Positions 2,830 through 21,050 of a stretch of DNA of 23,868 nucleotides are shown one piece after another (the stretch's first letter is position 1; each line of letters starts with the position of its first letter). The stretch comes from Zygnema cylindricum (Eukaryota; Streptophyta; Zygnematophyceae; Zygnematales; Zygnemataceae). Made by a program: the position numbers and the translations under genes. The stretch covers positions 1-23,868 of the forward strand of contig JBBHKE010002222.1 of assembly GCA_037447655.1 (NCBI GenBank), written 5' to 3'. The notes below the pieces were generated by a model. That model saw only the letters and a list, made by a program, of their open reading frames with translations. It ran no database searches and was not told the DNA's origin.

Positions 2830-3420
2830 TAGTGTTTAAAAGATAAAAAGGGAGCGCCTAGGGAAGAAGAATAGTAATACTCCTTGCCGCGTGTCGACTT
2901 CGGAAAGAGCAAAGTGTTGGATTGGCACGTGAAGCCGATCCAATACGGGGTAGAATATGGAAATATCCATACTCGAGCCGCCCGTAATAAATGGGTACGG
3001 ACCCGCCAGTCTCAACATCGAGCTGGTGGCACAGTGGTAGTGCGTTTGCAGCTGAAGTGAAAGGTCCCAGGTTGGAACCCTGGCCGGCTCAATTTTCCCA
3101 ATTGTAGGACATGCCGAATCTCGGATTTCTAAGAAATCTAACACAAAGGAGTTATGTTTTTTGGGTTCTCAACTTGAGGAGACTCGGAATACAGAGAGAA
3201 AAATTGAGGAAATGTTTGATACATTTATCGATATGTAAAATTCCGTTTTCAAACTCAACCGAGTGAGAGCAAAGAAAACACTTCCTTTCTGGATGGCGAT
3301 CCATTCGGTGGAGGAGCTAATGAGAGTGAGAGAAAAGAGAGGATTAGGAAGGGAAAGTCGAAGATAGAAGAAGAAGAGTCATAGTTTGACTAAGGATTGG
3401 AGATTGAAGAAAATTATAAT
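2830..3420 (+). other. Copia-2 5' leader with several small hairpins
   Basis: About 590 bases between the primer site and gag, with no open frame of note. It holds a 10-bp inverted repeat with one G-T pair (about 2914-2942, TTGGATTGGC against GCCGATCCAA), an ATGGA/TCCAT hairpin near 2957-2972, a GGGT/ACCC hairpin near 2994-3005, and the tRNA-like segment annotated separately. The cluster of stems before the cloverleaf may be structured RNA or an inserted SINE. Confidence 0.4.
3020..3090 (+). tRNA. tRNA-like cloverleaf (possible tRNA-Gln CTG pseudogene or SINE head)
   Basis: Seventy-one bases fold by hand into a full cloverleaf. The acceptor stem GAGCTGG/CCGGCTC has 7 pairs with one G-T. The D stem is GCAC/GTGC, the anticodon stem TTTGC/GTGAA has two G-T pairs, the variable loop has 5 nt, and the T stem is CCAGG/CCTGG. 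A-box TGGCACAGTGG (3027-3037) and B-box GGTTGGAACCC (3070-3080) are present at normal spacing. The seven-base anticodon loop would place CTG at the anticodon (Gln). Against a functional gene, the base before the anticodon is G instead of the near-universal T, and the T loop has G where C is conserved. No CCA or poly-T terminator follows directly. I favour a decayed tRNA or a tRNA-derived SINE head inside the Copia-2 leader. Confidence 0.55.
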
Positions 3421-4188
3421 ATGTTAGGGAAATCTGTGGCCTTTAATGGCTCCAATTATGCTGTTTGGAATAAATTTATTTCAAGCTAACTTATTTTTAA
3501 TAAGCTTTGGAGGATTTTCAATGGAGAAGAAAAGATGCCACTCGAGAGTAAGGCACCTGCTCAATGGAGGTTGAAGGATATTGCGGCAATGACTGGTTTG
3601 ATGAAGAATTGCACTTCTTCCGTGCTTGATCATTTCCTCGCTCACGGCACGGCCCAAGAGGGTTGGCAAGCAATTGAGGAGCAATATGAGAAAGGCGTTG
3701 AGAACAAGGGTTAATATGTTTATATGGAATTTATTAATTTTAAAATCAGACTAAATGAAGTGTTGGATGATGATGTAAAGCGCTTCAATATTATACTCAA
3801 GCAATTACTAAACAATGGTCGAGTTATTTTGGATGCGCATAAATTAAGCCTTTTTCTTAACGCTTTACCGGACAATCTTCCGCATCTTAAAGCTATTTTA
3901 CGAGCGAAGGCGGATAACAATTTCGGATTCACCGTCAACTTTATCAAAATGTCGGAGGGAACTCCATCGGCTTCTTCAAGTGGAGGAGGAAGATTTCTCA
4001 ACCTCACTACTGTTGAAACCCCGAATCTTAACTAAACTGGTGGTAGAGGAGGTGGTAGGGGAGGTGGCCTGAGAGATGGTGCCGGCCGAGGCAACAAGAA
4101 GGTGCAAGGTAGTCCACCGAAGGTCCCATCGGAACTTTCCAATGTGACATGCTGTCGGTGTAACCGGCTTGGAAATTTGTTTTCCTCA
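3421..4188 (+). pseudogene. Copia-2 gag, N-terminal part up to the first zinc knuckle
   Basis: One plus frame from ATG 3421 reads a Copia Gag with in-frame stops at about 3487, 3712 and 4033. It opens with FNGSNYAVWNKF, the conserved Gag motif also seen in the neighbouring Copia-1 (FAGSNFAIWKRN). A helical Gag body follows, then a Gly/Arg-rich linker (about 4036-4105). The frame ends in CCRCNRLGNLFSSC, a CX2CX4HX4C zinc knuckle whose His has become Asn. Gag packages element RNA into cytoplasmic particles. The frame stops abruptly at the knuckle's last Cys, whose TGT codon overlaps the first bases of Gypsy block A1. The rest of Gag resumes at about 21060, so this is the left half of an element split by a 16.9-kb insertion. 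Confidence 0.8.
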
Positions 4189-5254
4189 TGTCATGTCGCA
4201 AGGTGTCGGCAGGTATTATTACTCACCCCTATACTAATTGACGTACCTGTGATGTGACAGGTTCATAACGAAGAGTACAGCTCAAGTTACGGACAAATCA
4301 AATACTAGATTACCTTCACGTATGGCACAATGGGAACGCAATGTGGAAGTAGTGTGGGACCGGACTGCGCTACGGCATCGGATGTCAAAAATTCAAACGG
4401 CTCCAAACTTGACTGATGTTTGAAGTCATGAACCCTTGGAGGTTCATGCATTATTTTGCTTAGCTTTGGGAGGGTTTTCATCCTCGAGGTGTAGATGTAA
4501 GGCATTATTGTGCGGCCACCCAGCAGCCGTCTCTAGGAACTGGCAACGTTTGACATAGAAACCTGCATGCTCAAAGACATATAGGAATATGTGTGACAGT
4601 ACGGATTAGTGAAAGCATAGGATAAAACGCCATTTGGCAAGATATAAACTTTTGCAAATTAAGTACGGAAATCCAACATTGGAAGGTTGTTGTGGCATTG
4701 TTTGACATACAAACCTGCATGCTCAAAGACATATAACAATTAGTGTGACAGTACAGATTAGTAAAGCATAGGATAAAACGCCATTTGGCAAGAAAAAAAC
4801 TTTTGCAAATTAAGTACAGAAATCCAACATTAGAGGTTGTCGTTTTGTGGCAGGTTTTTTCTCGAGATTTGTCGAACATTGTGATCCTAAGGTTTCCACC
4901 TAAATATTTAGTGACAGGCTAGTTTGGGATTACGGTTTCTTTTGAGACCCATAGCCTATGGTATTACATGTTTCGGAGAATCTCTTTCTCTTTCTACTAA
5001 GATCTTACCTAATCTATCGGCACTAGCCAGCCTGGAAGGTTTTCCTCCAGACTGTTTTTCTACTTGCTGTTGTTGGTGAATCTTGTCTGTAGGCTTAGTG
5101 TTTTCTTGCTGTCTGGGCGTTGACCGCACGGGTTTGAACCCACCTTGTCTGGCCTTGGAGGAATCGGCTCTCTCTCTCCAGCTGAGGAAGAGTTCTGGCC
5201 TGATGGTTGGACTCCTGTAGGGAATATTGATGACTTCAAGGCCTAGTGGCTACT
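4189..5254 (+). repeat. Gypsy terminal block A1
   Basis: Direct repeat of 19901-20832 (A2). Both start TGTCATG(T/C)CGCAAGG and end near GGCCTAGT(G/T)GCTACT, with long matching stretches and roughly 85-90 percent identity by eye. A1 is longer than A2 mainly because of the 152-bp internal duplication at 4548-4850. Position and length suit an LTR or part of one, but the segment that follows A2 (block B2) does not follow A1. Confidence 0.8.
4548..4850. repeat. 152-bp tandem duplication inside A1
   Basis: GTTTGACATA(G/C)AAACCTGCATG occurs at 4548 and again at 4700, and the following sequence (GACAGTAC, GGATAAAACGCCATTTGGCAAG, AATCCAACATT) is repeated at the same offset. A2 has only one unit (from about 20258). 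The duplication therefore arose in A1 after the two A blocks separated, or was lost from A2. Confidence 0.85.
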
Positions 5255-5517
5255 CTCGCAAATATTATTGTACTCAATTTGTTGTTTTTTCAATTTTCTT
5301 TATTGCTAGTTTAATTGTTTTTCCATCTAGTTTATGGTTTATATGTTGGTATCTTAAAACCCTTGCTTGTTTTCATTCCATTAATTGTCCAGTTATTCTT
5401 GAAGTAGTTGAATCTGAGATTGCTAAAATTGTCTGGTATTGTTTTCTCTTCTTTCATCCTACTAGATTAACTCACGCATAACACCTAGCAAGCTTAAACC
5501 ATAATAAAAAAAACTTG

Positions 5518-5520
<3 letters not shown>

Positions 5521-5572
<52 letters not shown>

Positions 5573-5574
5573 TA
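5521..5574. repeat. (AT)n microsatellite
   Basis: About 21 uninterrupted AT dinucleotides, followed by GTATATATATATT. A common, unstable simple repeat with no assigned role. Confidence 0.95.
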
Positions 5575-5920
5575 GGTTGTATAAAATTATTACAAAAATT
5601 ATCATTGCTTTATAGTCGGGTTGAGCGTGGCATAGTGCTGATACGCGTGCCCTAATAGGCAACAAACTAAGTCATTGAGCTGTGGTGTTTCTTGACAATT
5701 TGGAATTGGAGAGGAATTCGAGCTCGCATTACCATACTTGGTACTATCGCTCTAAGGTGAGTAGTCGGTTCTTTGCGGGTGCAGGCTCGAAGAAGGTAGT
5801 TAAGTGCAACCGTTTAGAGGGATTTTTACTCAACCGCAGGCAATGGCTTTTGTTCGTATAGGGCATTTTGTCACAATTTCTTAGATCTGACCGTGATTGG
5901 TCTTGAATAGCAGCTTCTTG

Positions 5921-6037
5921 TTTTATTACATCTGGCCTTGTTTCCCCAATAGTTTTCTGTTTTATTACATTTGGCCATGTTGGCCCTGATAGTTTACTGT
6001 TTTTATTAAAATGTGGCCACAAGTGGCCTTGCATAGG
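5921..6037. repeat. Three degenerate 39-40-bp tandem units
   Basis: TTTTATTACAT(C/T)TGGCC(T/A)TG starts at 5921 and 5960, and a weaker unit TTTTTATTAAAATGTGGCC starts near 6000. The later part of each unit shares (A/G)ATAGTTT(T/A)CTG. It lies directly upstream of the protease frame. Confidence 0.7.
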
Positions 6038-6076
6038 TGACGTGTTTCTTCTTGGCGTGGCTTGGAGTGACTTCTT

Positions 6077-6602
6077 GTGGCCTATAAGGTCAAAGAACGG
6101 TTATCAATACTGTCCACCATGCTTCGTGATCTAGTGCACAACACCAAATCCGTGGATCTAACTCAATCTGCTCATGCATTACAGACCCTTCAGAATCATA
6201 GAAACACTCTCTCTCTTCAAGCAATTACCCTTAAAGAACGTGTTGGTCTTACACCGCAAATAAGTTTGATGGATAACAAACTAGGAGTGTTTACAGTCAA
6301 TGGTTTTGCCCAAGCGTTACCTCTCAGGGACACAGGTGCAAAACCAATTATTCTTGGGTCAAATTTTGCGATCAAAATAGGTCTTAAATTACAACCTACA
6401 ACCACACGTTTATTGACTTCAACAGGCACCACAATACTTGTCCTTGGAATTACAAAAGAACCCATCTTTTTTAAGTTTCTGTGCAAGTTGGAAATAGATT
6501 TTACATAAATATATGCTCACGCCTTGGTCACCAAGTGTAATGATTATGAATGCTTAGTTGGCCAAGACGTTATTTTTCGCGTAGGGGGGGGTTTATATGC
6601 AT
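6077..6602 (+). pseudogene. Gypsy aspartic protease region
   Basis: The frame from 6077 reads 143 residues to a TAA at about 6508, then continues in frame to a TGA near 6602. Residues 66-100 resemble a retropepsin N-terminal half, with the catalytic motif RDTGAKPIILGSNFA (Asp85-Thr-Gly). After the stop, ECLVGQDVIF matches the hydrophobic Gly-rich segment near the retropepsin C-terminus. In the family this domain cleaves Gag-Pol in the particle. The N-terminal 60 residues are not recognised and may be the tail of Gag or a linker. The catalytic triplet is intact but the frame is interrupted. The methyltransferase region begins at once downstream, in a different frame. Confidence 0.75.
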
Positions 6603-7828
6603 GATCAAACATTTTCGTATAGACCTAGCAACTTTCCAGAACGCAAAATTTGCTTACCCCTTATCTCGGCGTGGCAACCCATGCATACCACGGCCCATTC
6701 TGCGCTGATCTTGCAAGCCTATGTCGCAGTTGGCATAGGTGCGGAGATTCTTCAATCTGTAACATAGGAGGAAATCTGATTAGATCCTCCGAGAATACCA
6801 AAATTATTTAGCACACCTGGATTTATTATTGACTCCGCAGATTTTGACCGACTTTATAAATTCACCATACCAATCTCGTTATTGAGTATTTCAAAACCAT
6901 CCTCCACTACGACAAATTCTTTCGGTTTCTTGCCCATTAAATGGAAACTGGTCAATTTGCAACCGCATCCAAACTGTCTCGTTATTTTATACCTTTTTGT
7001 AGGGATAAGAACTTCACTTCTCGCTTGCCTTCAAAACGGTCTTCTGATTAAGCATTATTACTCTGTAGATATTGATCCCTTGGCCAGACGTGCTTAGTTG
7101 CACCACTGTCAAATTTTGCACAAACAATATCCTCACCTCTAACCCTTGTCTGCTTTTCACAACATGCACTCAGCTTTGCCACAAGATATGCTTTTCACAA
7201 CATGCACTCAGCTTTGCCACAAGATATCCAGCTAATAGGAAATCATCACTTGATGGAATTAGAACCAATCGATCTCCACTTTGCCGGATGGGAATGGCAA
7301 GGTATGTCTAGGGCTGAGAAAGGTTTAGGTCTCGCAGATCTGCGTACTAAGCTATTGTTTGAGGTTGTTCGTCTTATTCACTTCTTCCAAAAATAGGACC
7401 GTCCTTTCAAATACATCCAAGAAAATATCGCAACTCATAATGATCTGCGACCAACGGTAGTCGCATATTACAAACGCATTGAATCATTGATTAGACCAAC
7501 ATTAATTATCAATGTCGCACGTCATGGTTCGCTGGCTCACTAGGTTTGTTCTAAGTGTGCTAAATTGTTAGACATGGGTCGGCTCCGAGAAGCTAACCTC
7601 GCTGTCTGACCACTGATCCTTTCCATTCGGGATGTACGTCTTCTATTTCATAAGGTCCAGACATGTATACAGACAGACTATCCTTCTGGATTTGATGTTA
7701 ACATCCCGAGCCAGCCACTACGTGCACTACCTACACTAGTCCCACACCCACACTTTCATGCATATTTACATAATCCACCGAATGCCACAATACTCATACA
7801 ATCGCTTAGAAGCTTACCGCCGCAGTAA
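6597..7828 (+). pseudogene. Cytosine-5 DNA methyltransferase domain within Gypsy pol
   Basis: In one frame from about 6597 to the duplication at 7152, then shifted by it: LYLFVGIRTSLLACLQ (6987-7034) matches SAM-binding motif I (F-x-G-x-G, second Gly now Arg). YYSVDIDPLARRA (7056-7094) matches motif II. FAGWEWQGMSRAEKGLG (about 7280-7330) matches catalytic motif IV (P-C-Q type), with Trp32 of that frame at the catalytic Cys. KYIQENIATH (about 7409-7438) matches motif VI (ENV). VARHGSLAH, then stop, then V (7514-7546) fits the motif VIII region. The frame runs on as a possible target-recognition region to about 7828. Stops lie at 6765, 6777, 7095, 7140, 7394, 7541 and 7607. The enzyme family methylates cytosine C5 using SAM. 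DNMT3/DRM, CMT or other class cannot be settled by eye; the GSLAH segment recalls DNMT3. Lying between protease and RT, it would have been part of Pol. Confidence 0.85.
7152..7227. repeat. Perfect 38-bp tandem duplication inside the methyltransferase
   Basis: GCTTTTCACAACATGCACTC and the next 18 bases occur twice back to back (7152-7189 and 7190-7227) with no differences. Thirty-eight is not a multiple of three, and the methyltransferase frame before it (frame of 6597) and after it (frame of 7202) differ by exactly this shift. The duplication is thus a frame-breaking event and, being perfect, probably recent compared with the stops around it. Confidence 0.95.
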
Positions 7829-8245
7829 CGAGAGCACCTTTACATTTCATTCCGCACTACTCGCTTCCGACTCACCGTTGCGTACGCACCTTACTCCGTT
7901 GAGTCATGGATCTTCAATCATCTTCAGTTGTTTTGGGCATAGGGTTTGCAGTCCGTCGATACTCACAGAACAATCAGTCTAAATCAGCTGGGGTGGGCAT
8001 ACACCATTTCAATACACAGCATCTAAGTCCGCACCTTCTCTCCAGGTACAGCTTTTCTGCTCTCCCTCTTTCCTTCCCCTGTCAGACCTGACACCGCTCA
8101 CACTATTTATGATTTTTTGATCCCTGGTCACATGGGTTGGTCTCTCCTAACATACACAGCCGCTAGGTCTTAGGCCCCGGACCAAGTATCCGCACACTGG
8201 ACAGTCGTATTTTCGTCTAGATGTTGGCATCACGTAGTAAATTGT
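7829..8245 (+). other. Pol linker between methyltransferase and reverse transcriptase
   Basis: About 420 bases with no recognisable domain. Two overlapping plus frames (7758-7982 and 7906-8091) are open for 60-74 codons but show no motif. By position it should hold the methyltransferase C-terminus (motifs IX-X) and the lead-in to reverse transcriptase; neither is identifiable by eye, so deletion or strong decay is likely. Confidence 0.45.
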
Positions 8246-9000
8246 TTGCTTCAGTTTCCAGTCGAGTGTGAGTTGGGTCACTCCTTAATAGCGGATGAAC
8301 ACATGGCATTTGCACTAGTTATGAAAGCCATGACCATTAACACGTCCGAAATATCGACATGGAAATTCGGAACTGGACTAACAAAAACTGAACACGAACT
8401 GCTAGATGGAGACATTAACCGACATGGGGACGTGTTCGCTTTCAATATGAAAGACTTAGGCCGGCACACCACCTACAAAATGTCAATCAACCTAGAGGAT
8501 GACAACATCGTCTTTCAAAAATTGAATGGGAATCCGTTGACAAACGATTCAGAGAACTAGAAGAGGCAGGTCTTATTTATAGGTCTGATTCCACCTTTGC
8601 AGCTCCCACTGTTATGCCTCGAAAAAAAGATGTGGAGGGTAATTTTACATAACGTCGCATATGTGGAGACTATCGAGAATTAAATTCACATACAATTAAA
8701 GATGGACATCCCATGCCGTTGGCGGAGGACATTTTTTATCATGTCGGTGATGCTAAATATTTCAGTATCTTGGCTTTGCGATAGAGATTTAATCAAATCG
8801 AATAAGAGGTAAATGATCGACACAAGACTGCATTTTGGGGAAGTGACGGACGTCGCGAATGGGCGGTTATGCCCTTTGGACTGAAAAATGCACCAGCCAT
8901 ATTCTAGAAGGTCATGGATTAGTCTTGGGGGGATGTAAGTTTGCCCGTTGCTATATCGACGATTTAATCATCGTTTTGGCCACTATATAGGAACATGCAT
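8246..9000 (+). pseudogene. Gypsy reverse transcriptase fingers and palm
   Basis: The frame 8246-8560 ends with VFAFNMKDLGRHTTYKMSIN, the usual lead-in of this Gypsy class. After a shift near 8520 another frame reads KRFRELEEAGLIYRSDSTFAAPTVMP, ICGDYRELN, PMPLAEDIF, KYFSILALR and AVMPFGLKNAP. YIDD, the motif C Asp pair, is intact at 8952-8963 in a third frame. In motif A the catalytic Asp of the family's S-x-L-D-L is Ala (codon 8773-8775). In-frame stops fall in FT-stop-RR, LR-stop-RF, IE-stop-E and IF-stop-K. The enzyme copies element RNA to cDNA in cytoplasmic particles; this copy cannot. It precedes the connection and RNase H domain, reached after another frameshift. Confidence 0.85.
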
Positions 9001-9027
9001 TGCATATAGAGTGGGTATTGAAAGAAA

Positions 9028-9811
9028 ATGATAAAGGTAAGACTCAAATGTCATCTTGCCAAATGTACCTTCGGGGTCAAAAGAGTCCCCAGTCTTGGGC
9101 ATTTTATCTCGTGCGAGGGAAATAATCCTCTAGAAGTCAAAGTGGAAGCGATTAGGAAACTAGCGGCCGCAACTGATCGGACTAGCCTACGGGCATTTTT
9201 TGGGCTAGCAAATTATTACCGTAGGTTTGTTCCTAGATTTAGTATACTTGCATCTTCACTAAATGAATTCCTAAAGAAATCAGTCTCGTTCACGTGGGGA
9301 CCTGTTCAGATCGAGGCATTTCAAGGATTTAAGGAAGCACTTTCCACCGCTCTCATTTTTCGTCCACCAAATCATAAATTACCATTTTGTCTACAAACCA
9401 AATTTGGTAAGCGCGGTATCGCAACCATCCTAGCTCAACGCGAACTTACAAGTGAGGAATATGTGGTGGCCTACGCTTGTCAAAGCAACAATCAAGAAGA
9501 ATCAAATTTCAGTAGTTACGAGGGAAAATGTCTTGCAGCAGTTAAGGGTATTGTGCATTTTCGCCATCTTTATGGCAAGCCTTTCACCCTTCTTACTAAC
9601 TGTCTTCTATTGCATTCGCTCATGACCAAACAAAGATGTTTGGCAAATTAGCCCTTTTGGCTCTTATTTTACAAGAATATGATGTCATAATTATCCATCG
9701 ACGGAGGCTCCTCAGTTTGAATGCTGACAGTCTCTCTAAGAACCCTTTGCCTAATTCCACTGATAATGGTGTACGACAAGGTTTCAATGGCAAGCCAGTT
9801 GCATCCCTATA
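9028..9811 (+). pseudogene. Gypsy reverse transcriptase thumb and RNase H, copy 1
   Basis: CHLAKCTFGVKRVPSLGHFI and LRAFFGLANYYRRFVPRFS are the RT thumb and connection. RNase H follows with VVAYACQSNNQEESNFSSYEGK, HFRHLYGKPFTLLTN and, after a one-base shift near 9625, GKLALLALILQEYDVIIIHR. The first RNase H catalytic Asp (family L-x-T-D) is Lys (LQTKFG), and the later Asp (LTDH type) is Asn (LTN). The Glu of SSYEGK is kept. The region ends at a TAA at about 9809-9811 that is also present in copy 2. From 9219 on, it is duplicated at 11938. Confidence 0.85.
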
Positions 9812-9867
9812 AGCTGGAGAACATATGATTTATATCTTTGCCGCTCCCACGAATCACAAAACCGAAC

Positions 9868-11010
9868 ACGATCCATGGCGGGACACCGCTTTCATCCTCT
9901 TCTTGTCAACTAAGTCTTTCGAGCGAGCACCTTAACGGGGGAAGAGGAGCGTGTGCGGAGAAGAGCCCAAAGTTGCTTCTGGATGAGGGGCTCACTCATT
10001 CGCCTTCTCACAGAAGGAAGTCATCGGCATGTTACTCGGCCGATAAAACCACTATCATTTATTAACCAAATTCATACTGACCTTGGACATTATGGCACAA
10101 ACGGACTTTGAGCTTGGTACAAGCACGGTATTGGTGGTCAAGCATGCAGGCTGATGTGGCGGCTGTGTTGCACAAATGTAGCACATGTTATCGGCTACGA
10201 ACCTTATTTTTTAATCGACAAACCACCCATCAACCCTTCCCTATTCGAAGGCTCTTCTACAGATTGTCGTGCAACTTGGCAGGTCCCTTTCCAATTTCTG
10301 GAAGGGGCAAGCAATACATCATGATAATGATCAAGAATTTTAGCAAATTGGTAGAGGTTGTGGCCCTTCAGCAGAAAACGGCCAAACTAACCACTACAAC
10401 TTTCAACGAGCATGTACTCCTCCAATATGGAGCCCCTGCGAAAGTACTCACAGATCAGGGAACCGAGTTTCGTGGCGAACTTCAACAGATGTTGGAGGAG
10501 GCGTTGATCGATTATCGTCGAAGAAGCCGAGATCATCCTTAGGTAGACGGTTTAGCCGAGAGAGCTGACAAAAATATAAGCGGGCTCTGCGTAAACAATG
10601 TCCGGAAAAACAGATTACAGTTTGGGATGAATCTTTGGGATATAAAGTTATGGAGTATCAGATGTCTATGCACGCGAGCTTGGCCAATTTGAGTCTTTAT
10701 TATGTGTTGTTTGGTAGAAAACCACTACTAGGTAGGAATGTAAAGAAAGCTGCCAACTTACCTTCGCCTTTTATGTCAGATTCTCTTTTCCTGGAAGAAC
10801 TTACTAACCAGGCATTGCTTTTTGCTAGGAAAATGCCCATGGCTTTTGATAATTTACAAATTCCTCAACATCGCAAACTCCTTACGGTCTGCAACAACTT
10901 GCAGTGGCAGCTACTGGCCAAAACAAAAACCCTTCAGTGTGGGAGATTATGTTTATTTGCGACAACAAATGTAGAAATTGATGGTTTTAAAGTATTTTCT
11001 AGGTCTGAAT
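9868..11010 (+). pseudogene. Gypsy integrase, copy 1
   Basis: It starts in frame with DPWRDTAFILFL and passes through the HHCC zinc region (HTDLGHYG, then KCSTC). The frame changes between HYGTN and TLSLVQARYWW. In the core, the first catalytic Asp is Asn (SCNLAGPF), the second is kept (KVLTDQGTEFRGEL) and the Glu is kept (DGLAERA), but a TAG (10540-10542) separates them. Another shift leads to the C-terminal segment (10635-11012) with NLSLYYVLFGRKP and, in another frame, FSVGDYVYLRQQ. Integrase joins cDNA to host DNA. This copy lacks the PHD tail: recognisable sequence stops near 11010. Confidence 0.85.
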
Positions 11011-11012
11011 AG

Positions 11013-11920
11013 TAATAAAGAAGCCGAGGCAGTCTACCTCTAACTTCTCTCTCCAAACTCTCAAACTTGTCGCAGTCACTAAGAAATTGGAGAGGAAGCT
11101 AGAGCCATGGCTACCTAGGCTATCCTGAGGTTGACGGGAAATTTATACTAGTTAGGGAGGAGATTATTTACTAAAAGGTATATGCCGGCCACAAGATTTG
11201 ATCCTAGTACCTGCCCGCCGACAGATAGTAGGTAGCCAGTAGCGTTAGCCGTTAGGTATAGAAGTAGTCTTACGTATTATATAGTACGATAATTAATTAA
11301 ACATTAATTCGTAGGATAAATCATTAAACTATAATTGTTAACGGGATACATAGATCTGGTATGTAAAAGTACGAATTGCGGTATGGATAAAGAATCAATA
11401 CCGCGCATAGATTTCGTAAGCGAAACAAATACCGCGCATGTATTTATTACGGCTACGATCAAATACGAGTTTAATCGGACGGCCTGAATTAGAGCCGAGA
11501 TCGCGGAAGAAGAATTTGGCGGTTTGTAAGCATCGCCACATCAGATGACACGTGGCGATGTCACATTGGAGCGCGTTATCTCCGAGGATTAAAGGAGCGA
11601 ATTCAGTAATACCACGAGTCAACATTTAGGGCATGTCGTACAGTGTCCGTACATAAAGTACACCGGCAGCTGTACTTTTGCCTACGGAACTGTAATCTGA
11701 TTGGTTCCGTACATCAGTAGATAGAGTCTGTGAGAGAGATAGGACTTAGAAAAATTAGAAGATAGGACCCTCTCTTCCAGGGAGCTTCTGTACAAATGGT
11801 CAACTTTGACCATCCATAACTTACTGCTCAGGGGAGCAAATTCAAAGATTCTTTTTGCTATCGACTCAGGAGAGTCTTGTCTTCAAAGGGATTAAGTTGG
11901 TCAGAGTTTTTGTCTGTCAG
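11013..11920. other. Unexplained spacer between the two RNase H-integrase copies
   Basis: About 0.9 kb with no homology to the rest of the window and no domain on either strand. Structures seen: a 9-bp perfect hairpin CATCGCCAC/GTGGCGATG (11531-11560); AATACCGCGCAT repeated at 11397 and 11428 around a TTTCG-TAAG-CGAAA hairpin; GCGGTAT/ATACCGC (11378-11404); and the palindrome GGTCAACTTTGACC near 11797. The sequence GTGGCAG lies at both edges of the wider interval (10904-10910 and 11922-11928), as a target duplication might. However, the first 100 bases after the left one still look like integrase tail, which argues against a simple insertion. Confidence 0.45.
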
Positions 11921-11937
11921 GGTGGCAGTTATTTTTG

Positions 11938-12534
11938 CCGTAGGTTTGTTCCTAGTTTTAGTACACTTGCATCTTCACTAAATGAATTCCTAAAGAAATC
12001 ACTCCCGTTCACGTGGGGACCTTCTCAGATCGAGGCATTTCAAGGATTAAAGGAAACACTTTCCACCGCTCCCATTTTTCGTCCACCAAATCATAAATTA
12101 CCATTTTCTCTACAAACCGAATTTGGTAAGCCCGGTATCGCAACTATCCTAACTCAACACGAACTCACAGGTGAGGAATATGTGGTTCCTACGGCAGTCA
12201 AAGCAACAATCAAGAAGAATCAAATTACAGTAGTTACGAGGGAAAATGTCTTGCACCAGTTAGGGGTATTGTGCATTTTCGCCATTATCTTTATGGCAAG
12301 CCTTTCACCGTTCTTACTAACCATCATCCGTTGCATTTGCTCATGACTAATGACAAGATGTTTGGCAAATTAGCCCTTTCGGCTCTTATTTTACAACAAT
12401 ATGATGTCATAATTATCCATCGACCCGGCCTCCTCAGTTTGAATGCTGAAGGTTTCTGTAGAAACCCTTTGCCTAATTCCACTGATAATGGTGTACGACA
12501 GGGTTTCAATAGCGAGCCAGCTACATCCCTATAA
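11938..12534 (+). pseudogene. Gypsy RT connection and RNase H, copy 2
   Basis: Near-duplicate of 9219-9811, about 90 percent identical by eye, starting at RRFVPSFSTLASSLNEFLKK. The first catalytic Asp position is Glu here (LQTEFG; Lys in copy 1). The LTN substitution and the terminal TAA (12532-12534) are shared with copy 1. A frameshift follows GEEYVV, and the frame is regained at 12271. The region is preceded by 20 bases (11921-11940) identical to those ending the duplicated block at 13624-13643. Confidence 0.85.
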
Positions 12535-12589
12535 GTTGGAGAAGATCTCAGTTACAGCTTTAACGCTCCCACGAATCACAAAACCGAAC

Positions 12590-13643
12590 ACGATCCATGG
12601 CGGGACACCGCTTTGATCCTCTTCTTGTTAACTCAGTCTTTTTGAGCGAGCACCTTACCGAGGGAAATGGAGCCCGTGCGAAAGAGAGCTCAAAGTTGCT
12701 TCTGGATGGGGGGCTCACACATTCGCCTTCTCACAAAAAGAAGTCATCGGCATGTTTTTCGACCGATGGAATGACTATCATTTATTAACCAAATTCATAT
12801 TGACCTTCGACATTATGGCACAAACGGACTTTGAGCTTGTTACAGCTACGTTATTGGTGGTCAAGCATGCAGGCTGATGTGGCGGCTGTGTTGCACGAAT
12901 GTAGCACAAGTTACCGGCTAGGAACCTGGTTTTAAACCGAGAAACCACCCTTCAACCCTTGCCTATTCGAAGGCTCTTCTATAGATGGTCGTGCGACTTG
13001 GCAGGTCCCTTTCTAATTTCTCGAAAGGGCAAGCAATACATCATGATAATGATCGAGAATTTTGGCAAATTGGAAAAGGTTGTGGCCCTTCAGCAGAAAA
13101 TGGCCAAACTAACCACTGCAACTTTCAACGAGCATGTACTCCTCCAATATGGAGCCCCCGCTAAAGTACTCACAGATCAGGGAACCGAGTTTCGTGGCGA
13201 ACTTCAAGAGATGTTGGAGGAGGCGTTGATCGATTATCGTCGAAGAAGCCGAGATCATCCTTAGGTAGACGGTTTAGCCGAGAGAGTTGACAAACATATA
13301 AGCAGGCTCTGCGTAAACAATGTCCGAAAAAACAGATTACAATTTGGGATGAATCTTAAAGATATATTGTTATGGAGTATCAGATGTCTATGCACGCCAG
13401 CTTGGCCAATTTGAGTCTTTATTATGTGTTGTTTGGTAGAAAACCACTACTAGGGAGGAATGTAAAGAAAGCTGCCAACTCACCTTTGCCTTTTATGCCG
13501 GATTCTCTTTTCCTGGAAGAACTTACTAACCGGGCATTGCTTTTTGCTAGGGAAATGCCCATGGCTTTTGATAATTTACAAATTGCTCAACATCGCGACT
13601 CCTTACGGTTTGCGACAACTTGCGGTGGCAGTTATTTTTGCCG
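12590..13643 (+). pseudogene. Gypsy integrase, copy 2
   Basis: Near-duplicate of 9868-10910. The zinc region has lost a Cys (ECSTS in place of KCSTC). The core keeps all three acidic residues: SCDLAGPF, VLTDQGTEFRGEL and DGLAERV. The TAG between the second Asp and the Glu (13262-13264) is at the same place as in copy 1, as is the frame change after HYGTN. The C-terminal segment 13372-13640 reads NLSLYYVLFGRKP, then MAFDNLQIAQHRDSLR, typical of this Gypsy class. Unlike copy 1 it leads into the Pol tail and PHD finger, so it is probably the copy next to the original 3' end of pol. Confidence 0.85.
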
Positions 13644-13882
13644 AAACACAAAGGGGTCAGGGTTATCCTAGAGGCTTCTTGGAAGCTGTCCACTCTGAGG
13701 ACTTATGGAGGTCTCAGAGTTTTATGCTTGACACCCTTGACACGGATGTTCCACCCCACATTTTGAGGATTACAAAGATCAACTATAATGGATTATTTAG
13801 TATACAAGGGGGCGACACAGGAACTTAGCGGGAGCATTCAAAAAATTGTGCCTCGTGCTACCTGCCAGATCTTTCCCACAAC
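13644..13882 (+). pseudogene. Gypsy Pol C-terminal tail
   Basis: The frame 13544-13828 reads DTLDTDVPPHILRITKINYNGLFSIQGGD, a beta-rich segment of the kind that follows integrase. After a stop at about 13828 the same frame gives REHSKNCASCYLPDL (to about 13880). In related green-lineage elements I recall a segment of this type linking integrase to a PHD finger; this is from memory. The stretch 13644-13715 does not match the integrase tail of copy 1 (FSVGDYVYLRQQ) and may be scrambled. Confidence 0.6.
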
Positions 13883-14098
13883 ATGGACCCATGGCGGATG
13901 CCAATTTATGTGGCCATTGAGTGTCGGTTGTGCCGGCAATCTAATGGAGAAACAACAATGCGTCTTTGTGACAATTGCAATTTGGGATTTCATATGGGGT
14001 GTTTCGTTCCACCTCTGCACACTATCCCGGCTGGACAATGGTTTTCTTACAGATGTCGCGACCTATCGGTTGTGTTTACCAGCTCTTCCGCAGGCTTA
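13883..14098 (+). pseudogene. PHD finger at the C-terminus of Gypsy Pol
   Basis: The frame from ATG 13883 holds a C4HC3 finger at residues 14-58: CRLC (14-17), CDNC (29-32), H37, C40, then PPL (43-45), the conserved Trp53 and C58. All spacings fit a PHD domain, including the LCD-x-C and W-x-x-x-x-C signatures. The seventh ligand, normally Cys two residues after Trp, is Ser55, so zinc binding would be impaired. PHD fingers commonly bind histone H3 tails; in an integrase tail such a domain could guide target choice, which is inference. The recognisable finger ends at 14056; the frame stays open to about 14131 without further motifs. Confidence 0.85.
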
Positions 14099-14120
14099 AG
14101 AGCTGGGGCGAGGAAATTCC
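14097..14120 (+). other. Candidate polypurine tract of the Gypsy element
   Basis: AAGAGCTGGGGCGAGGAAATT lies between the end of pol and block B1. It is purine-rich and placed where plus-strand priming would occur if the 3' LTR starts at B1. The core is interrupted by CTs, so this is tentative. A similar string occurs at 23110-23135. Confidence 0.4.
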
Positions 14121-14294
14121 ATCCTTACTAACTTGACTTCGCTTGTCTTTTAATTTTTTTGCTTAGTTTATGTGTTTAGTTTGTCTGTTTTTTCATGCAG
14201 ATTCGTTTATTCTTTCTTGCGGTTGGGCATACTGTACATATGCTATGGTTATCCATTTTGAAGTGTTTATCTACGACACAAGCTGTATTGGATG
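14121..14294 (+). repeat. Gypsy terminal block B1, left piece
   Basis: Direct repeat of 20837-21014 (B2): AT(C/T)CTTACT, then TGACTTCGCTTGTCTTTTA, CGTTTATTCTTTCTTGCGG-type sequence, and TGGTTATCCATTTTGAAGTG. Copia-1 interrupts it after GGATG (14290-14294); the block resumes at 19860. Confidence 0.85.
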
Positions 14295-14788
14295 TGTTAG
14301 GATATAGTACTGAGCACTTACATAGCGACGAGATATTCTCGTAGGTAAAGTAGCGTCGACCAGCGACGAAGTACTTTCGTCGCTAGATATTTGAAGTGAA
14401 ATAGAAGTTATATGTTCGTTTTGTTTCATGCAAGTTCTAGTCGTACTATAAAAGTGACATGGAAATTATTTCGTCACTTCGGTTCACTTAAGTTTTAGTC
14501 GTACCGCGCATTTCAAGTCGGTTGGTAGTTAACTTTCTTTGTTGGTCAACTAACTTAGGAGGACTACCTTTAGTCGGCGGTATACTTTGCCACACGTTTT
14601 GTTGGTCCTATTTATATATATTTGTTGAGACTTTGTGGTAGAATTATCTTTTGGAGGCGTAGCTTATTAAGGAGGCGTAGAAAGGTCAGAAGTAAAAGGA
14701 GTTTGATTTGCATTGTGTTAAATATATTGAATGTTTTTGGAGAAACCCCATTGTTGTGTGTATATTTTATTTGATTTGTAATCTTTCA
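14295..14788 (+). repeat. Copia-1 5' LTR
   Basis: Bounded TG...CA. Near its start are three related inverted-repeat words: ACGAGA-TAT-TCTCGT (14328-14342), CGTCG/CGACG around 14353-14367, and the perfect 9-bp stem AGCGACGAA-GTACT-TTCGTCGCT (14362-14384). A TATA-like run (TTTATATATA) lies near 14611. It differs from the 3' LTR by lacking one 48-bp unit and a 13-bp purine-rich insert. Confidence 0.95.
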
Positions 14789-14790
14789 AT

Positions 14791-14803
14791 TGGTATCAAA
14801 ACG
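14791..14803 (+). other. Primer binding site of Copia-1
   Basis: TGGTATCAAAACG begins two bases after the LTR end. It matches the plant Copia primer site complementary to initiator Met tRNA (TGGTATCAGAGC) for 8 of the first 8 bases, then diverges. Confidence 0.8.
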
Positions 14804-14826
14804 GGTTACTGGTAACACTTCCTAGT

Positions 14827-15900
14827 ATGGCTGAGAAAGGGAAATCCCTGGTTGAACCTAGTGGAGGAGCTAGTGGGGGAGTTAGTGGAGGAGGAGTTAC
14901 AAGGACACAATATGATGAGTATGACAAATCGGGGGGGGGGAATGTGAAGATGGACGACGGAACGTTTGAACGCTTTCAAGAGTTTCTCAAAACACAAGAT
15001 GATGAGGAGATAGAGGAGTAAGTCCACTCACACAACTCTAAGAAAATAAAGAAAAGGAAGGGGAAATCTAAACTTTATGAGGAAGAGGAGGGGAGCAAAG
15101 ATGATGATTTTAAAGTGTTTAATAAAACCATCGTCTTCGCGGGTTCCAACTTTGCAATTTGGAAGAGAAACATTCGAGGAGCATTCACACCGAAAAAACT
15201 TTGGGACATCGTTATCAGGGAGGAAACACGATCGGATCCTTCCGTGGATCCAGCCGGAGCACATAAGTGGGACAAGAAGGATATGGCGGCCTCCACCGCA
15301 CTTATACAAAGTTGTGTTGAATAATATATTGGGTTTATAGTCCATTGATGATGGAGTCAAAAGGTTTAATGTCATCATAGAACAACATAACTCACTCAAT
15401 AACTTCTCTACGGAAAAAGAGAGGTTGTTTGTGTTTATGAGGAGTCTTCCAAGCAAATTTGCGGTAGCAAAGGGGGTTATCAAGGGGCGAGAGAAATCGA
15501 CAATGGCATATGCTATCAATCACTTGAAGAGTACAGAGAAGGAGAAAGCAACACCGAAAGAGGAAAACAACAAGTCATCTTATCAGAGTTATCAAGAGAA
15601 GGATGACGGATGAGCTTACAGCTTTAGGGGATCTAGGGGGAGAGGAGGTGGACATAGTGGACGAGGAGGAGGTCACAAGGCCTAAGGAGAGGCTCATATC
15701 AACGTGATACCTCTCAGATGACTTGTTACAATTCTAACGAGATTGGGTATGGCTCTTTTGAATGCCCAGATAAAAGTAAACACTGTAACGTTAGTCATAA
15801 GTGGGGACACACTGGTCGCGGTTGTTATCAAAACAAGGGAAACAATCGCAAAAGGGGAGAATTTAGAGACGTAGGAAGTGGTGGAATTGGTTCATCATGT
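14827..15900 (+). pseudogene. Copia-1 gag
   Basis: ATG 14827 opens a Gly/Ser-rich N-terminus (64 codons, stop at 15021). The conserved Gag motif FAGSNFAIWKRN follows near 15130-15170 with LWDIV. Another frame (15425-15613) gives MRSLPSKFAVAKGVI and a Lys/Glu-rich stretch. An RGG-type linker lies at 15620-15685. From 15718 two zinc knuckles follow in tandem, each with one Cys-to-Ser loss: CYNSNEIGYGSFEC (His to Tyr as well) and CNVSHKWGHTGRGC. The paired-knuckle layout is the reference used here for locating the break in Copia-2. At least three frame changes or stops prevent a full product. Confidence 0.8.
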
Positions 15901-15959
15901 AGAGGGGATTTTGTAGGGGATGGGCTATTGGGACAGGATCAAGAATTCTTCGTTTCACT

Positions 15960-16350
15960 CATGGAGGAATCACAAGAAAAAGAGGATATCCTATTTCACA
16001 CACGAGGCAAAGAGAGTAAAGGAAAATTTAAAAATTGGATCATAGACTCAGATGCTACCCATCACGTGTGTTCAAACCTAGGACTATTCAGTGATATTAG
16101 AAAACTTACTATACCAAAATCCATCATAGTGGCTAACGGTTCGATGATGGTTATTGATACAGTGGGAACAATACGATTGGATCTATCGGCACAAGATAGG
16201 AAAGGGAAAACTAGAGTCAATAGAGTACGTTTTAAAAATGTGCTTTATAATCCGAGGGGGTGTATCAATCTCTTAAGTGTCCCACAACTTCAGAGGAAAG
16301 GTGGAAGAGCCACATGCATGGAAGGGGGTAGAATCATTTTGAGTAGTTAA
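15960..16350 (+). pseudogene. Copia-1 protease
   Basis: Continues in the frame of the zinc knuckles. The active-site motif reads WIIDSDATHHVC (Asp codon 16045-16047), where the family has D-(S/T)-G-A; Gly is replaced by Asp, so activity is unlikely. LFSDIRKLTIPKSIIVANGS and VLYNPRGCINLLSVPQL are the conserved downstream segments. TAA closes the frame at 16348-16350. Confidence 0.85.
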
Positions 16351-16453
16351 ACATGACTATTTGCAGAGGGGGTTGTAACTGAAAATATGCAAAGTAGACT
16401 GATTTGGAGAAAACCAGAAAAATTGGACGGCGGACGAAAAAGGGCACCTTCAT

Positions 16454-17500
16454 TTGGCAGAGGTCAACAAAGAGGATCTCACGCTGTGGCATCATCGTTT
16501 GTGTCACACTTCAGAGAGTAATATCAAAGAGATTATTCTTCATCGTGCGGTTCCAGGACTAGACGTGACGACTGGAAAAAAGGTTATCGGATGTGTAGGA
16601 TGCACAAAAAGGAAGCATAAAAGGAAGCCTCATCCGGTGAAAGACCTTCAGTTCAAGGCGAATGCCCCTTAAGACGAAGTTCATGTAGATCTTTGTGATG
16701 ACATATATCTAAAAACCATTGGAAAAAATAAATACATTATGGTGATAGTTGATGATTTCAGCAGGAAGACATGGGTGTACCTTTTAAAGGCAAAGTCAGA
16801 AGCATTAGAGACATGTAAAGATTTTGTGGTTATGGCTGAGAGGGAAAGTGGGAGTGAGGTAAATGCAGTACGATCAAACCGTGGAGGCGAATTTTTTGCC
16901 TTTGCCAAATATTGTAAGGAGACGGGGATTAAACATCAGTTCACGGCTCTTTATTGCCCACAATCAAATGGAATAGCAGAGAGGAAAAATCGGACATTGC
17001 AAGAGATGGTGAGGGTCATGCTCCATACGACATAACTCACTCATCGTCTTTGGGGAGAGGCAATCAGGGCGGCTAATCATGTTACAACCTGGAGAATCAA
17101 CTCGTCTTTAGGTAACAAAACACCGGAGGAAATTTGGAGTGGAAAAATGCCTACGGTAAAATATTTAAGGATTTGAGGAGGTGAGGCTATGGGATACGTA
17201 GAGGAAAGAAATCGGGAGGGGAAATTTGTTGCATGGTCATGGGAAGGATACTTTGTGGGGTATAGTGAAAACTCGATGCGGTATCAGATTTATAATCCCG
17301 TTACTAGGAGGGTTCGAGAGTCTAGAAATGTGGAGTTCAATGAAAATTTTGAATGGATGGTGAAAGGAGCTAATGAGTCTAAACGGGCCCAAGTTTACGA
17401 GGAGGATAGTCGTTGTGAAAAATTCACAAGAGAAGAGGAGGAAAAAGAATATGTCTTGATAAAGGTAGGGACAAAGAAAAAAATGTGATTTGCAGAGAAA
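16454..17500 (+). pseudogene. Copia-1 integrase
   Basis: The HHCC zinc domain is recognisable (LTLWHHRLCHTSESN, then CVGCTKRKHK). The core begins DEVHVDLCDD and KYIMVIVDDFSRKTWVYLLK. The second catalytic Asp is Asn (AVRSNRGGEF); the Glu is kept (NGIAERKNRTLQEMV). Stops fall at about 16670 and 17033. The 17189-17488 frame carries the C-terminal GYFVGYSENSMRYQIYNP, then VRESRNVEFNE, a Copia GKGY-like end. Inactive by both stops and the lost Asp. Confidence 0.9.
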
Positions 17501-17503
17501 ACT

Positions 17504-18576
17504 TTGGAGAAAGTTCAAAAATCTAAGCCCACCAGCAACCAATCACAAGGGGACAAGACCATTAGAGAATCATCTACTCACACAAACAACATGACACCAA
17601 AAGAGACACCTTTAGAGAATGAGGGCGATGACAAGATTGAGAGCAGTGATTCGGATAAAGAATTTGCAGAGGACGTAAGGAGAAGTAAGAGATCAACGAA
17701 AGGGAAGGCACCGGAACGATTCTCACCAAGACAGTCATATAAAAAGCAAACTAGTTACCAGAGGGCAATTTCCGAACTTAGAGAAGGAAGGGCGGAATCC
17801 TTCCTCTTATGAAAGGCAAAATACACAAAATCGTCCGGCCGATCCTCAATCATATCAAGAGGCTAAAGACTCGGATGAATGGGAGGAGAAGTGGAAACCG
17901 ACATATAAAAAAGAGTTTAATTTTGTGAAAGCTAATGGGTGTTTTGAAGAAGTAGACTCACCTATTGGTAAGAAGGCGATTGACTCAAAGTGGGTTTTTA
18001 AACAAAGACAGGAGCCTCGGGAGAAATTCTTAAGTATAAGGTACGGTTGGTATGTAAAGGATTTCAGCAGAAGGAGAGTATCGACTATTCAGAGACATTT
18101 GCTTCGTGGTTAAGTTTGATTCTTTGCGAGCAATTATTGCAATGGTGACAGCAAAAGGAATGCATATTTGACAGATGGATGTAGAGACAACTTTCTTAAA
18201 TGGTGAATTAGAGGAGGAGGTGTACATGAAAATTCCAAAAGGAGTTCCCGGAAAGAATGGAAAACTATGGAGGTTGTGGATGGCTTTGTATGGTTTGAAG
18301 CAAGCGCCAAGAACATGGAACCATAAGCTTTACACGGTTTTACTAATCTTGAGATTTAAGAGGCTTACTGCAGATTGTGGAGTGTATATTCAGGTAGAAG
18401 GTTTGGATATGATAATTTTTAGTGTATACGTAGATGATTTTATTTCCATCTCTCACAACTTGGATTTACTTAGAGAATTAAAGATTGAATTTCGGAAGCA
18501 TTTTAGAATCACAGATTTAGGAGATGCACAATACATTGTGGGAATTCAGATACAGAGGAAAACAAGATATTGTTGA
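17504..18576 (+). pseudogene. Copia-1 linker and reverse transcriptase
   Basis: An acidic, Lys-rich linker (17504-17812) leads to the RT N-terminus: DSDEWEEKWKPTYKKEF and GKKAIDSKWVFKQR (about 17870-18010). Then, in another frame, KVRLVCKGFQQKESIDYSET appears (18030-18100). The palm (18175-18576) has MDVETTFLNGELEEEVYMKI with the motif A Asp, GLKQAPRTWN, and YVDDF with both motif C Asps. The catalytic residues survive although the frame is broken near 18020 and 18110. The copy ends at a TGA after IQRKTRYC. Confidence 0.9.
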
Positions 18577-18900
18577 CCGCAAACAAAGAGTCTTGGGGAT
18601 CGGGTTTTATCAAAGCCACTTGAACTCCGCTGATCCTTTATGCTTTAATTTGCGTTTAAGCCGATAATGGTAATGAGGCGGTTTAGCGATGTAGTGTCGG
18701 TACTTACTACGACATTGTCAACATTGAGTGTTGTTAGTGGATTGTGTCAGTATGCATAGGAGGTTTGTGAAAATATTTAGGTGTTTGGCCGGAATACTTG
18801 AATCCAAATGGTTTATAAAAGATGAGAGCTATTATGGATATTATGATGGACTATGATACATTACGTAGGTCACTTAGGATGTTTTACTTGGAGGAGGAAC
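18577..18900 (+). pseudogene. Degraded Copia-1 RT/RNase H junction
   Basis: By position this should carry the RT thumb and RNase H N-terminus. I recognise only fragments, such as SLGDRVLSKPL in one frame. It is much more decayed than the sequence on either side, and some of it may be deleted. Confidence 0.5.
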
Positions 18901-19265
18901 CATCTCGTGGAATTCCCGTTTGCAGCCTACTGTGGCACTTTTATCAACAGAGGCGAAGTATATGGTTGCCTGTCATGTTGCAAAGAATGTTGTGTGGATT
19001 AAAGAATTTATATCGGAGGATGGAGTGGAAAAAGAATGGATGCAAATACTACGTGATAATATATCCTCCATTCCACTTAGTAAAAATCCTATTTTGCATA
19101 AGGGCACCAAACACATTAAAATTCAGTGGCGTTTTGTTCGAGATTAGGTAGCAGAAAAAGAAGTTTAATTTGCGTTTGTTCTTACTAAAGAACAAGCTGC
19201 TGATATGTTAACCAAAGCACTATTGAAGGAAGTCTATCAAATGGGAAAGAAGTTAGTGTGCATTG
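18900..19265 (+). pseudogene. Copia-1 RNase H C-terminal half
   Basis: The frame 18920-19147 reads QPTVALLSTEAKYMVACHVA (the catalytic Glu region), VVWIKEFI and LRDNISSIPLSKNPILHKGT with the Asp kept, followed by KHIKIQWRFVRD. After a TAG, LTKEQAADMLTKALLKEVYQ is the typical Copia Pol end, and TAA closes it near 19270. A second overlapping frame (18822-19151) is a shadow. Confidence 0.9.
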
Positions 19266-19304
19266 ATTAACAGGGGGCTTTGAGTGTCTCAGTAAAATGG
19301 GATA

Positions 19305-19859: not shown

Positions 19860-19896
19860 AGATGCATGCCACTCACGATTGTATGGTCATGCACGA
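19860..19896 (+). repeat. Gypsy terminal block B1, right piece with target duplication
   Basis: AGATG (19860-19864) is the right target-site copy. GCATGCCACTCAC and GTCATGCACGA then match the end of B2 (21018-21050). Four bases (AAAC) separate it from the start of A2. Confidence 0.8.
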
Positions 19897-19900
19897 AAAC

Positions 19901-20832: not shown

Positions 20833-20836
20833 GTCT

Positions 20837-21050
20837 ATTCTTACTTACCTGACTTCGCTTGTCTTTTATTTTCTTTGCTTAGTTCTTGTGTTTTGTCTTT
20901 CCGTTTTTTAGGCAAATTAGGCAGATTTGTTTATTCTTTCTTGCGGTCTGTAATATTGTGCATATGCAATGGTTATCCATTTTGAAGTGTTTATCTACGA
21001 CATAAGTTGTATTCGATGCATGCCACTCACTATTGTATAGTCATGCACGA
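20837..21050 (+). repeat. Gypsy terminal block B2 (contains the uninterrupted Copia-1 target site)
   Basis: Direct repeat of B1 across the Copia-1 insertion. TTGTATTCGATGCATGCCAC at 21007-21026 is continuous here, whereas B1 is split after GGATG. It ends GTCATGCACGA at 21050; Copia-2 sequence resumes within about 12 bases. Confidence 0.85.

Follow-up and report, generated by a model that had tools for sequence, protein, structure and literature searches.

The 23,868-nucleotide stretch of DNA analysed here (the window; positions 1 to 23,868 of contig JBBHKE010002222.1, Zygnema cylindricum assembly GCA_037447655.1) contains a dead Ty3/Gypsy retrotransposon with split direct repeats at 4189-21052, an interval that includes a nested copia element. 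On its plus strand, positions 6071-9651 hold a broken protease (PR), a broken cytosine-5 DNA methyltransferase (MTase) and a broken Gypsy reverse transcriptase (RT) and RNase H (RH); both the order RT-RH-integrase (IN) and a Gypsy-type RT were found, in agreement with Ty3/Gypsy affiliation. The element is a dead member of a Ty3/Gypsy clade that carries a predicted DNMT3-type MTase and usually a PHD finger, and whose named hosts so far are green algae.

Profiles register little of the window MTase directly: PF00145 scores 14.8 bits against a cut-off of 22 on the open reading frame (ORF) at 7076-7396 and 12.0 bits on a 213-residue piece, to which the NCBIfam model dcm gives 15.7 bits, far below its own cut-off; the window copy is not itself among the 123 PF00145 matches listed for the source genome, and a PDB search with the window pieces returned no MTase. 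An MTase-word search with the read-through window frame gave 353 candidates, none of them significant, and there was no match in viral contigs or phage DNA searched with the window piece, nor in an Rfam scan of the window. The domain is identified through relatives. P0001, a protein of 2358 residues with protease, PF00145 (32.5 bits), RT, RNase H, integrase and PHD finger (42.7 bits) in one frame, aligns collinearly to the window from the protease (6233-6589) through the MTase to RT (from 8357), integrase and PHD finger (to 14056); within the MTase it matches 6906-7214 at 44% identity (82 bits, E 1e-19) and 7208-7780 at 37.5% identity (125 bits, E 6e-34). L009, a copy from the source genome, matches 6861-7190 at 76% over 110 residues (170 bits) and the stretch from 7190 at 59% over 367 columns (372 bits), reaching 8260 in the linker; aligned over 4946 columns, the window and L009 share 79.9% identity overall. 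Motifs I (LFVGIRTSLLACLQNG), IV (FAGWEWQGMS) and VI (QENIA) and a GSLAH stretch stand in canonical order, with a remnant of motif IX/X recognized by eye 3' of approximately 7820.

These comparisons place a predicted, broken MTase between the retropepsin and the Gypsy RT well beyond chance, for which the window alone would be insufficient proof. A first-pass annotation of this DNA had claimed this position in pol, now borne out by the P0001 and L009 alignments, and a PHD finger in the same element, which is present. The interval that it gave for the MTase, 6597..7828, does hold the domain and misstates its extent: the MTase occupies approximately 6861-7960 behind a linker, in an element that runs from 4189 to 21052. 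The PF00145 search that it proposed stays below cut-off on window pieces and becomes significant through P0001 and L009. The features of the window are as follows.

3715-4188, plus strand: left gag part of an outer copia-type element (right part from 21057; outer limits not set)
4185-4188, no strand: left target duplication CTCA (right partner CTCT at 21053-21056, agreeing in three of four bases; three younger copies have exact 4-bp duplications)
4189-5264, plus strand: A1, the left-hand component of the split-repeat set, starting TGTCATG, with a 150-bp tandem duplication inside
6083-6595, plus strand: broken retropepsin-type protease (78% identical to L009, 252 bits; PF13650 17.1 bits, under cut-off)
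6597-6860, plus strand: linker ahead of the MTase
6861-7190, plus strand: N-terminal part of the MTase with motif I, frame 3 (76% identical to L009, 44% to P0001)
7151-7226, plus strand: 38-bp tandem duplication (7151-7188/7189-7226, by repeat comparison), shifting the MTase frame
7190-7960, plus strand: C-terminal part of the MTase with motifs IV, VI, VIII and degraded IX/X (L009 alignment, 372 bits; end set by eye)
8357-9666, plus strand: leader, RT and RNase H of copy 1 (P0001 alignment; PF17919 66.8 bits; RT proper from approximately 8503)
9633-10968, plus strand: RNase H end, linker and integrase, copy 1 (Pfam; P0001 and L009 alignments)
10970-11930, minus strand: another repeat of 0.96 kb separating the two RT-IN copies (84% identical to the L020 flank, opposite strand)
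11931-13653, plus strand: RT end, RNase H and integrase, second copy (91% identical to 9212-10929; 2.72 kb downstream of the first block)
13922-14056, plus strand: PHD finger, seventh zinc ligand lost (PF00628 34.6 bits, over cut-off)
14098-14115, plus strand: polypurine tract directly 5' of B1 (read from the sequence; same place in eight other copies read)
14118-14294, plus strand: first part of B1, the remainder at approximately 19865-19898 past the nested copia (82% identical to 20834-21018; 94% over 36 bases to 21015-21050)
14295-19859, plus strand: nested Ty1/copia element, flanks GGATG/AGATG (pair of long terminal repeats, LTRs; RVT_2 125.6 bits, rve 47.5 bits)
19901-20835, plus strand: A2 (repeat comparison, end reading)
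20834-21052, plus strand: B2, terminal CACGACA (repeat comparison, end reading)

Several defects show that the window copy is dead: stops, the 38-bp duplication, a catalytic cysteine codon changed from TGT in L009 to TGG (tryptophan) near 7293, a PHD finger whose seventh zinc ligand has changed from cysteine to serine, and no gag, L009 1013-3046 being without a match in the window between 6018 and 6083. Its A1 is 84-88% identical to its own A2 and 76-79% identical to A2 of L009. It was inserted in a Ty1/copia element and itself hosts another. Its ends (4189/21052) sit in the zinc-knuckle region of the outer copia-type gag; when the flanks are joined, two CCHC knuckles (a motif that we take PF00098 to represent) stand in one frame with one stop, and the right part at 21060-22292 contains Pol_BBD (54.8 bits) and rve (47.6 bits), ORF 3715-4032 on the gag side having no Pfam match. 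The nested copia at 14295-19859, whose LTRs match at 83% over 564 columns (61 of them gap columns), is a later insertion that split B1. Further split-repeat remnants lie at 23110-23325 (76% identical to the polypurine tract and B of L011/L016) and 23503-23765 (73% identical to L012 8719-8980). ARAGORN calls a tRNA-Gln (ctg) at 3020-3091, left of the outer copia gag and possibly a tRNA-derived repeat, and 1545-2124, outside the element, is a repeat in common with the left flank of L010 (82%).

Relatives, enzyme type and constraint

A search from the RT-RNase H of the window recovered 26 relatives, P0001 the best of them, among 400 candidates, and a third search, in which 7992 candidates were scored, gave 33 matches, including KFL_009030040 of Klebsormidium nitens (P0030), Haematococcus lacustris QJQ45_005750 and Chrzof1 Cz02g39130, which we read from its label as Chromochloris zofingiensis. 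Two orders of pol are found. The order PR-MTase-RT-RH-IN occurs in eight proteins, fragments included, with the protease seen in five, K. nitens among these; P0010 follows the order of P0001 from the MTase onward. The order RT-RH-MTase-IN-PHD occurs in 15 proteins, six of them with the complete order, the partial ones being the Chromochloris protein (RH-MTase-IN-PHD, no RT), five with MTase-IN-PHD and three with RT-RH-MTase. Only an MTase was found in the Haematococcus protein, and P0002-P0009 begin at or near RT, where a lost and a separate MTase are indistinguishable. The best solved relatives of the PHD finger are Lid, PHF12, CHD4, KDM5A and KAT6A. Two points weigh against the finger as a usual component: P0030 is partial and ends ahead of the PHD position, and subfamily 2 of the Zygnema copies (L012, L013) has no regular PHD pattern.

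In an RT-RH tree of 41 rows, a clade of 26 rows separates from the 15 other Gypsy rows with 100/100 support. It comprises 15 proteins with an MTase, drawn from both orders, six with a PHD finger in which no MTase was seen, four copies from the source genome and the window; the second pol order is a clade at 99/99. Chromochloris stands outside this tree because rows without RT were dropped (P0035, P0038-P0041, P0046, P0058, P0059); also left out were P0005, P0007, P0016, P0017, P0020, P0021, P0024, P0026, P0043, P0050 and P0053-P0057, despite their RT, and all but four of the source genome's own loci. The unrooted MTase tree (35 rows, with 22 of 24 MTase proteins, P0044 and P0047 omitted, and 12 of 15 own loci, the frame-split L014, L017 and L019 omitted) splits the pol orders at 100/99, with Haematococcus on the second-order side and K. 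nitens on that of the window; the window piece groups with L009, L010 and L018 at 98/89. When one DNMT3A and eight bacterial rows were included and nine of the 35 rows left out (the window piece and eight others), the retrotransposon MTases fell on one side at 76/44, where long branches meet. One capture with one move inside pol would be the simplest reading, neither shown nor rejected at 76/44.

Among solved C5 MTases, a profile built from eight retrotransposon MTases (A3) scores highest with DNMT3A (93.1 bits), followed by 4onj (57.6 bits; named 'DNA methyltransferase' and presumably a DRM), DRM2 (47.7 bits), HhaI (46.3 bits) and DNMT2 (38.8 bits). This proximity and the motif order I-X identify the predicted enzyme as DNMT3-type. 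DRM enzymes have motifs VI-X before I-V; DRM was rejected, as that rearranged order was not found and motifs I, IV, VI, VIII and X stand in sequence in L009 and others. Profile A3 also gave 126 relatives in viral contigs and at least 158 in bacterial contigs, which lend no support to a recent origin of the MTase in prokaryotes, the best segments among the 80 of each kept being 23-46% identical.

The motif IV cysteine and the motif VI EN are kept in all 15 own loci, which were themselves picked by PF00145 match. The ratio of non-synonymous to synonymous substitution (dN/dS) of the MTase runs from 0.09 to 0.43 across 13 of the 66 own pairs, namely those with 0.05<dS<2, comprising four subfamily-1 pairs at 0.09-0.17 and nine subfamily-2 pairs at 0.12-0.43; of the remaining pairs, three are near-identical and 50 lie outside the dS range used. 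These ratios indicate constraint on the predicted MTase.

Copies in the source genome and their split repeats

The source genome (352,776,454 bases in 2689 contigs) contains at least 123 PF00145 matches above cut-off, with 123 of 782 candidates scored; some may be single-gene pieces or host genes. Fifteen loci of 10 kb were read, 13 chosen for long frames and two as top matches. RT lies downstream of the MTase in 14 of them, and the full order Gag-PR-MTase-RT-RH-IN-PHD is present in nine, five others being without detected Gag and protease and one having the MTase only. Among 20 further loci, hand-picked along the match list and read for 1.0-2.3 kb downstream, RT follows in 16, two of which gave short matches (80-86 bits); one has integrase in its place and three have neither. 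At L200 (G000:C12:29635-30935), a weak match of 43.5 bits puts integrase and not RT 3' of the MTase, which is the arrangement of the second pol order. Intact copies, which the first-pass annotation had recommended seeking, do exist: L009 encodes Gag-PR-MTase-RT-RH-IN-PHD in a single frame of 2395 residues, and L010 is nearly identical to it. The MTase of the window is not a one-off; it is a recurrent Gypsy component in this genome. The same annotation would have given up its reading had other copies lacked the domain; that objection fails, since in 30 of the 35 own loci examined an RT comes after the MTase, a count of loci picked via their MTase that leaves MTase-free copies uncounted. The idea that a host MTase gene or retrocopy landed by chance in one Gypsy copy, for which there is the fact that the window alone is one broken copy, is refuted by that recurrence, by K. 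nitens and by further proteins, and we give it practically no credence.

L009 and its left flank, L024, read A1 (931 bp), body, polypurine tract, B1 (243 bp), GC, A2 and B2, with outer ends TGTCATG and CACGACA. This is not the plan of two full, identical LTRs, since the 5' end consists of A only and the 3' end of B1-GC-A2-B2. Some copies look recently inserted, L009 among them, because its A1 and A2 are identical over 931 bp and its B1 and B2 are 99.6% identical. Exact 4-bp target-site duplications (TTGG, AAGG and CCCT) flank E1344 = L009, E829 = L014 and E1915 = L015, that is, three of the five copies with both ends read, and A1/A2 identity in these three is at least 99.4% in every aligned piece. 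The B1/A2 junction is exactly CACGACAGCTGTCATG in six of the 15 loci of 10 kb and GACAGCTGTC in two more, L019 and L023. No tyrosine recombinase family was found at E 0.01 in six proteins, and H2C2 and rve are present.

The TG/CA ends and the exact 4-bp duplications, together with the CA-GC-TG palindrome at B1/A2, suggest opening of a circle by a DDE integrase. Given how reverse transcription proceeds, the LTR would correspond to B-GC-A, because the polypurine tract precedes B; an integrase that opened a two-LTR-type circle at CA-GC-TG would therefore leave A-body-B-GC-A-B with target-site duplications. Several observations weigh against this reading. E449 = L011 and the window agree in only three of the four bases of their target duplications; A1 and A2 of E449 are merely 80% alike; no A1 was found in 1.4 kb of flank of L010; no B1/A2 junction was seen in seven of the 15 loci, and that of the window is mutated; and no TGG, as part of a tRNA primer site, was seen by eye within 45 bases 3' of A1 in three copies.

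Methylation footprint and possible roles of the methyltransferase

From L009 to the window, the frequency of C>T (and G>A) change is 0.201 at CG and 0.242 at CHG versus 0.117 at CHH (p 9.5e-6 and 3.2e-10, respectively); in the reverse direction, from the window to L009, the values are 0.101, 0.098 and 0.087, with no excess. From L009 to L018 they are 0.060, 0.057 and 0.023 (p 1.4e-4 and 4e-4), and two short MTase-free controls (965 and 556 columns, unpolarised) have no C>T bias. These substitutions indicate that copies carried methylation at both CG and CHG, as is typical of plants; together with the named relatives, this suggests a green alga or plant as host. The signal is weaker, and to that extent counts against this conclusion, in the second RT-IN block (CG 0.169, p 0.11; CHG 0.218, p 0.001; CHH 0.125), in the A repeat (CG p 0.04, CHG p 0.12) and from L013 to L021 (CG 0.070, p 0.017; CHG 0.052, p 0.14; CHH 0.033). 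The role proposed in the first-pass annotation, hiding from host silencing, finds no support: the C>T excess at CG and CHG indicates that the decayed copy was methylated, not hidden, and speaks against a simple hiding role. A caution applies here as well, in that the footprint fits host silencing equally with self-methylation. Copies of the K. nitens element carry CHH and CHG methylation, according to de Mendoza et al. 2018 (PMC5890265).

We propose an explanation that, taken whole, we consider only slightly more probable than its negation: a DNMT3/PHD Gypsy clade with methylation of cDNA in the particle, PHD-guided integration, opening of a circle, and later, methylated decay. The MTase would travel with RT in the particle and methylate freshly made cDNA at CG, an activity of which SymbioDIRS-Dnmt3 domains are capable in yeast; the methylated new DNA might then resemble host DNA or enter a tolerated chromatin state. 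The PHD finger would read the histone H3 tail and steer integration, as chromodomains do in chromoviruses. The cDNA would become a circle with the junction CACGACA-GC-TGTCATG, at which the DDE integrase would cut at CA and TG, drop GC and insert with a 4-bp stagger, and the internal B1-GC-A2 block would be an uncut copy of the junction that serves as template. The inserted copy would then be methylated at CG and CHG and decay. One result bears directly on the cDNA methylation step and goes against it: the isolated DNMT domain of the K. nitens Gypsy element produced no de novo methylation in yeast, an assay that its authors judged inconclusive, human DNMT3B having failed too; SymbioDIRS domains did methylate CG in yeast (PMC5890265). 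More tentatively, and as a possibility that we rate well short of even, the clade may be long-lived, with DNMT3 and PHD core to its pol, an MTase that has moved between two sites of the polyprotein, and a retroviral-type DDE integrase acting on a DIRS-type circle, of whose CA-GC-TG junction every copy would retain an uncut internal template, the cDNA being methylated before insertion.

The element MTase might instead serve self-restraint, methylating the element's own copies and so lowering both activity and host cost, whence persistence. The CG and CHG footprints of decayed copies agree with this, and slowed retrotransposition is named as an option in the discussion of PMC5890265; against it, L009 seems recently inserted with L010 nearly identical to it, and a bias at CHG is more suggestive of host enzymes than of a CG-type DNMT3, so that we regard self-restraint as unlikely. 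Marginally less probable again is an MTase whose retained function is to bind nucleic acids or to methylate RNA in the particle instead of methylating cDNA. The inconclusive yeast result is in its favour, as is the suggestion of RNA binding or methylation for SymbioLINE (PMC5890265), and constraint alone is silent on substrate; the catalytic cysteine and EN motif retained in 15 of 15 own loci, and an MTase that resembles DNMT3 more closely than DNMT2, which acts on RNA, argue the other way. It is very improbable that nesting, tandem copies or ectopic recombination merely make an ordinary LTR element look as if it had split repeats: the window copy is indeed rearranged (nested copia, duplicated RT-IN block, lost gag) and A1 of L010 is missing from the flank read, but A1-body-B1-A2-B2 stands in the unbroken L009, and also in L014 and L015, with exact 4-bp duplications outside both ends, and DIRS-like repeats are reported for the K. 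nitens element (PMC5890265).

Our preferred explanation, cDNA methylation with circle opening, is open to experiment in that young, unbroken and old, dead copies coexist in one genome, which allows self-methylation as protection to be tested versus a mere mark; the split repeats and exact 4-bp duplications likewise make the circle-junction idea testable. One RT clade with an MTase, and usually a PHD finger, spans K. nitens, proteins of both pol orders and a genome with at least 123 matches, the Chromochloris and Haematococcus proteins joining by MTase only. Such breadth suggests that reverse transcriptase, DNA methyltransferase and histone reader have been partners for a long time; in PMC5890265 the Gypsy Dnmt3 was regarded as having been acquired in the lineage of K. 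nitens.

Comparison with known systems

The nearest known system is KnitGypsy-Dnmt3 of K. nitens, a Gypsy element from another host whose Pol ORF encodes Dnmt3 and which has DIRS-like repeats, conserved catalytic residues and purifying selection (Ka/Ks under 0.2; PMC5890265). The first three have counterparts here; the dN/dS values of the own pairs lie on both sides of that Ka/Ks limit. Its protein P0030 also has the PR-MTase-RT-RH-IN order, belongs to the RT clade described above and, in the MTase tree, lies on the window's side. The position of the MTase in pol, which the first-pass annotation thought might be new, was therefore already known, KFL_009030040 having the same order and KnitGypsy-Dnmt3 dating from 2018; pairing with a PHD finger, its other candidate novelty, is apparently undescribed, 'PHD' being absent from the main text of PMC5890265, as are 'target site', 'split' and 'circular'. 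The annotation's statement on MTase capture by retrotransposons in dinoflagellates and charophytes agrees with that paper, in which SymbioDIRS-Dnmt3 and SymbioLINE-Dnmt of Symbiodinium share a DNMT domain in a retrotransposon, belong to other retrotransposon classes and represent independent captures; two SymbioDIRS structures with different domain orders coexist. A 2025 paper likewise places DNMT3 members in retrotransposons of streptophytes and dinoflagellates.

Apparently undescribed are the PHD finger behind the integrase, the second order RT-RH-MTase-IN-PHD, the TG/CA ends of the split repeats, the 4-bp duplications, the CA-GC-TG junction and the CG/CHG C>T excess in a decayed copy. The literature searched, apart from figures, supplements and most subscription papers, mentions neither the PHD finger nor a second order of Gypsy pol, and likewise neither the junction nor the 4-bp duplications. 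Chromoviruses, which have ordinary LTRs, share with these elements a histone-reader domain behind the integrase and differ in that the reader here is a PHD finger and not a chromodomain, and in the MTase. REM1 of Chlamydomonas is reportedly a green-algal Gypsy-type element with unusual repeats, and we know of no MTase in it. In contrast to the elements here, PMC2774666 describes a truncated, reverse-frame integrase with GPY/F and a chromodomain. With DIRS and PAT elements, as described in PMC8969392, the elements reported here share the A1-body-B1-A2-B2 plan of split direct repeats; those elements have a tyrosine recombinase and no target duplications, whereas here that plan is combined with a DDE integrase and 4-bp duplications.

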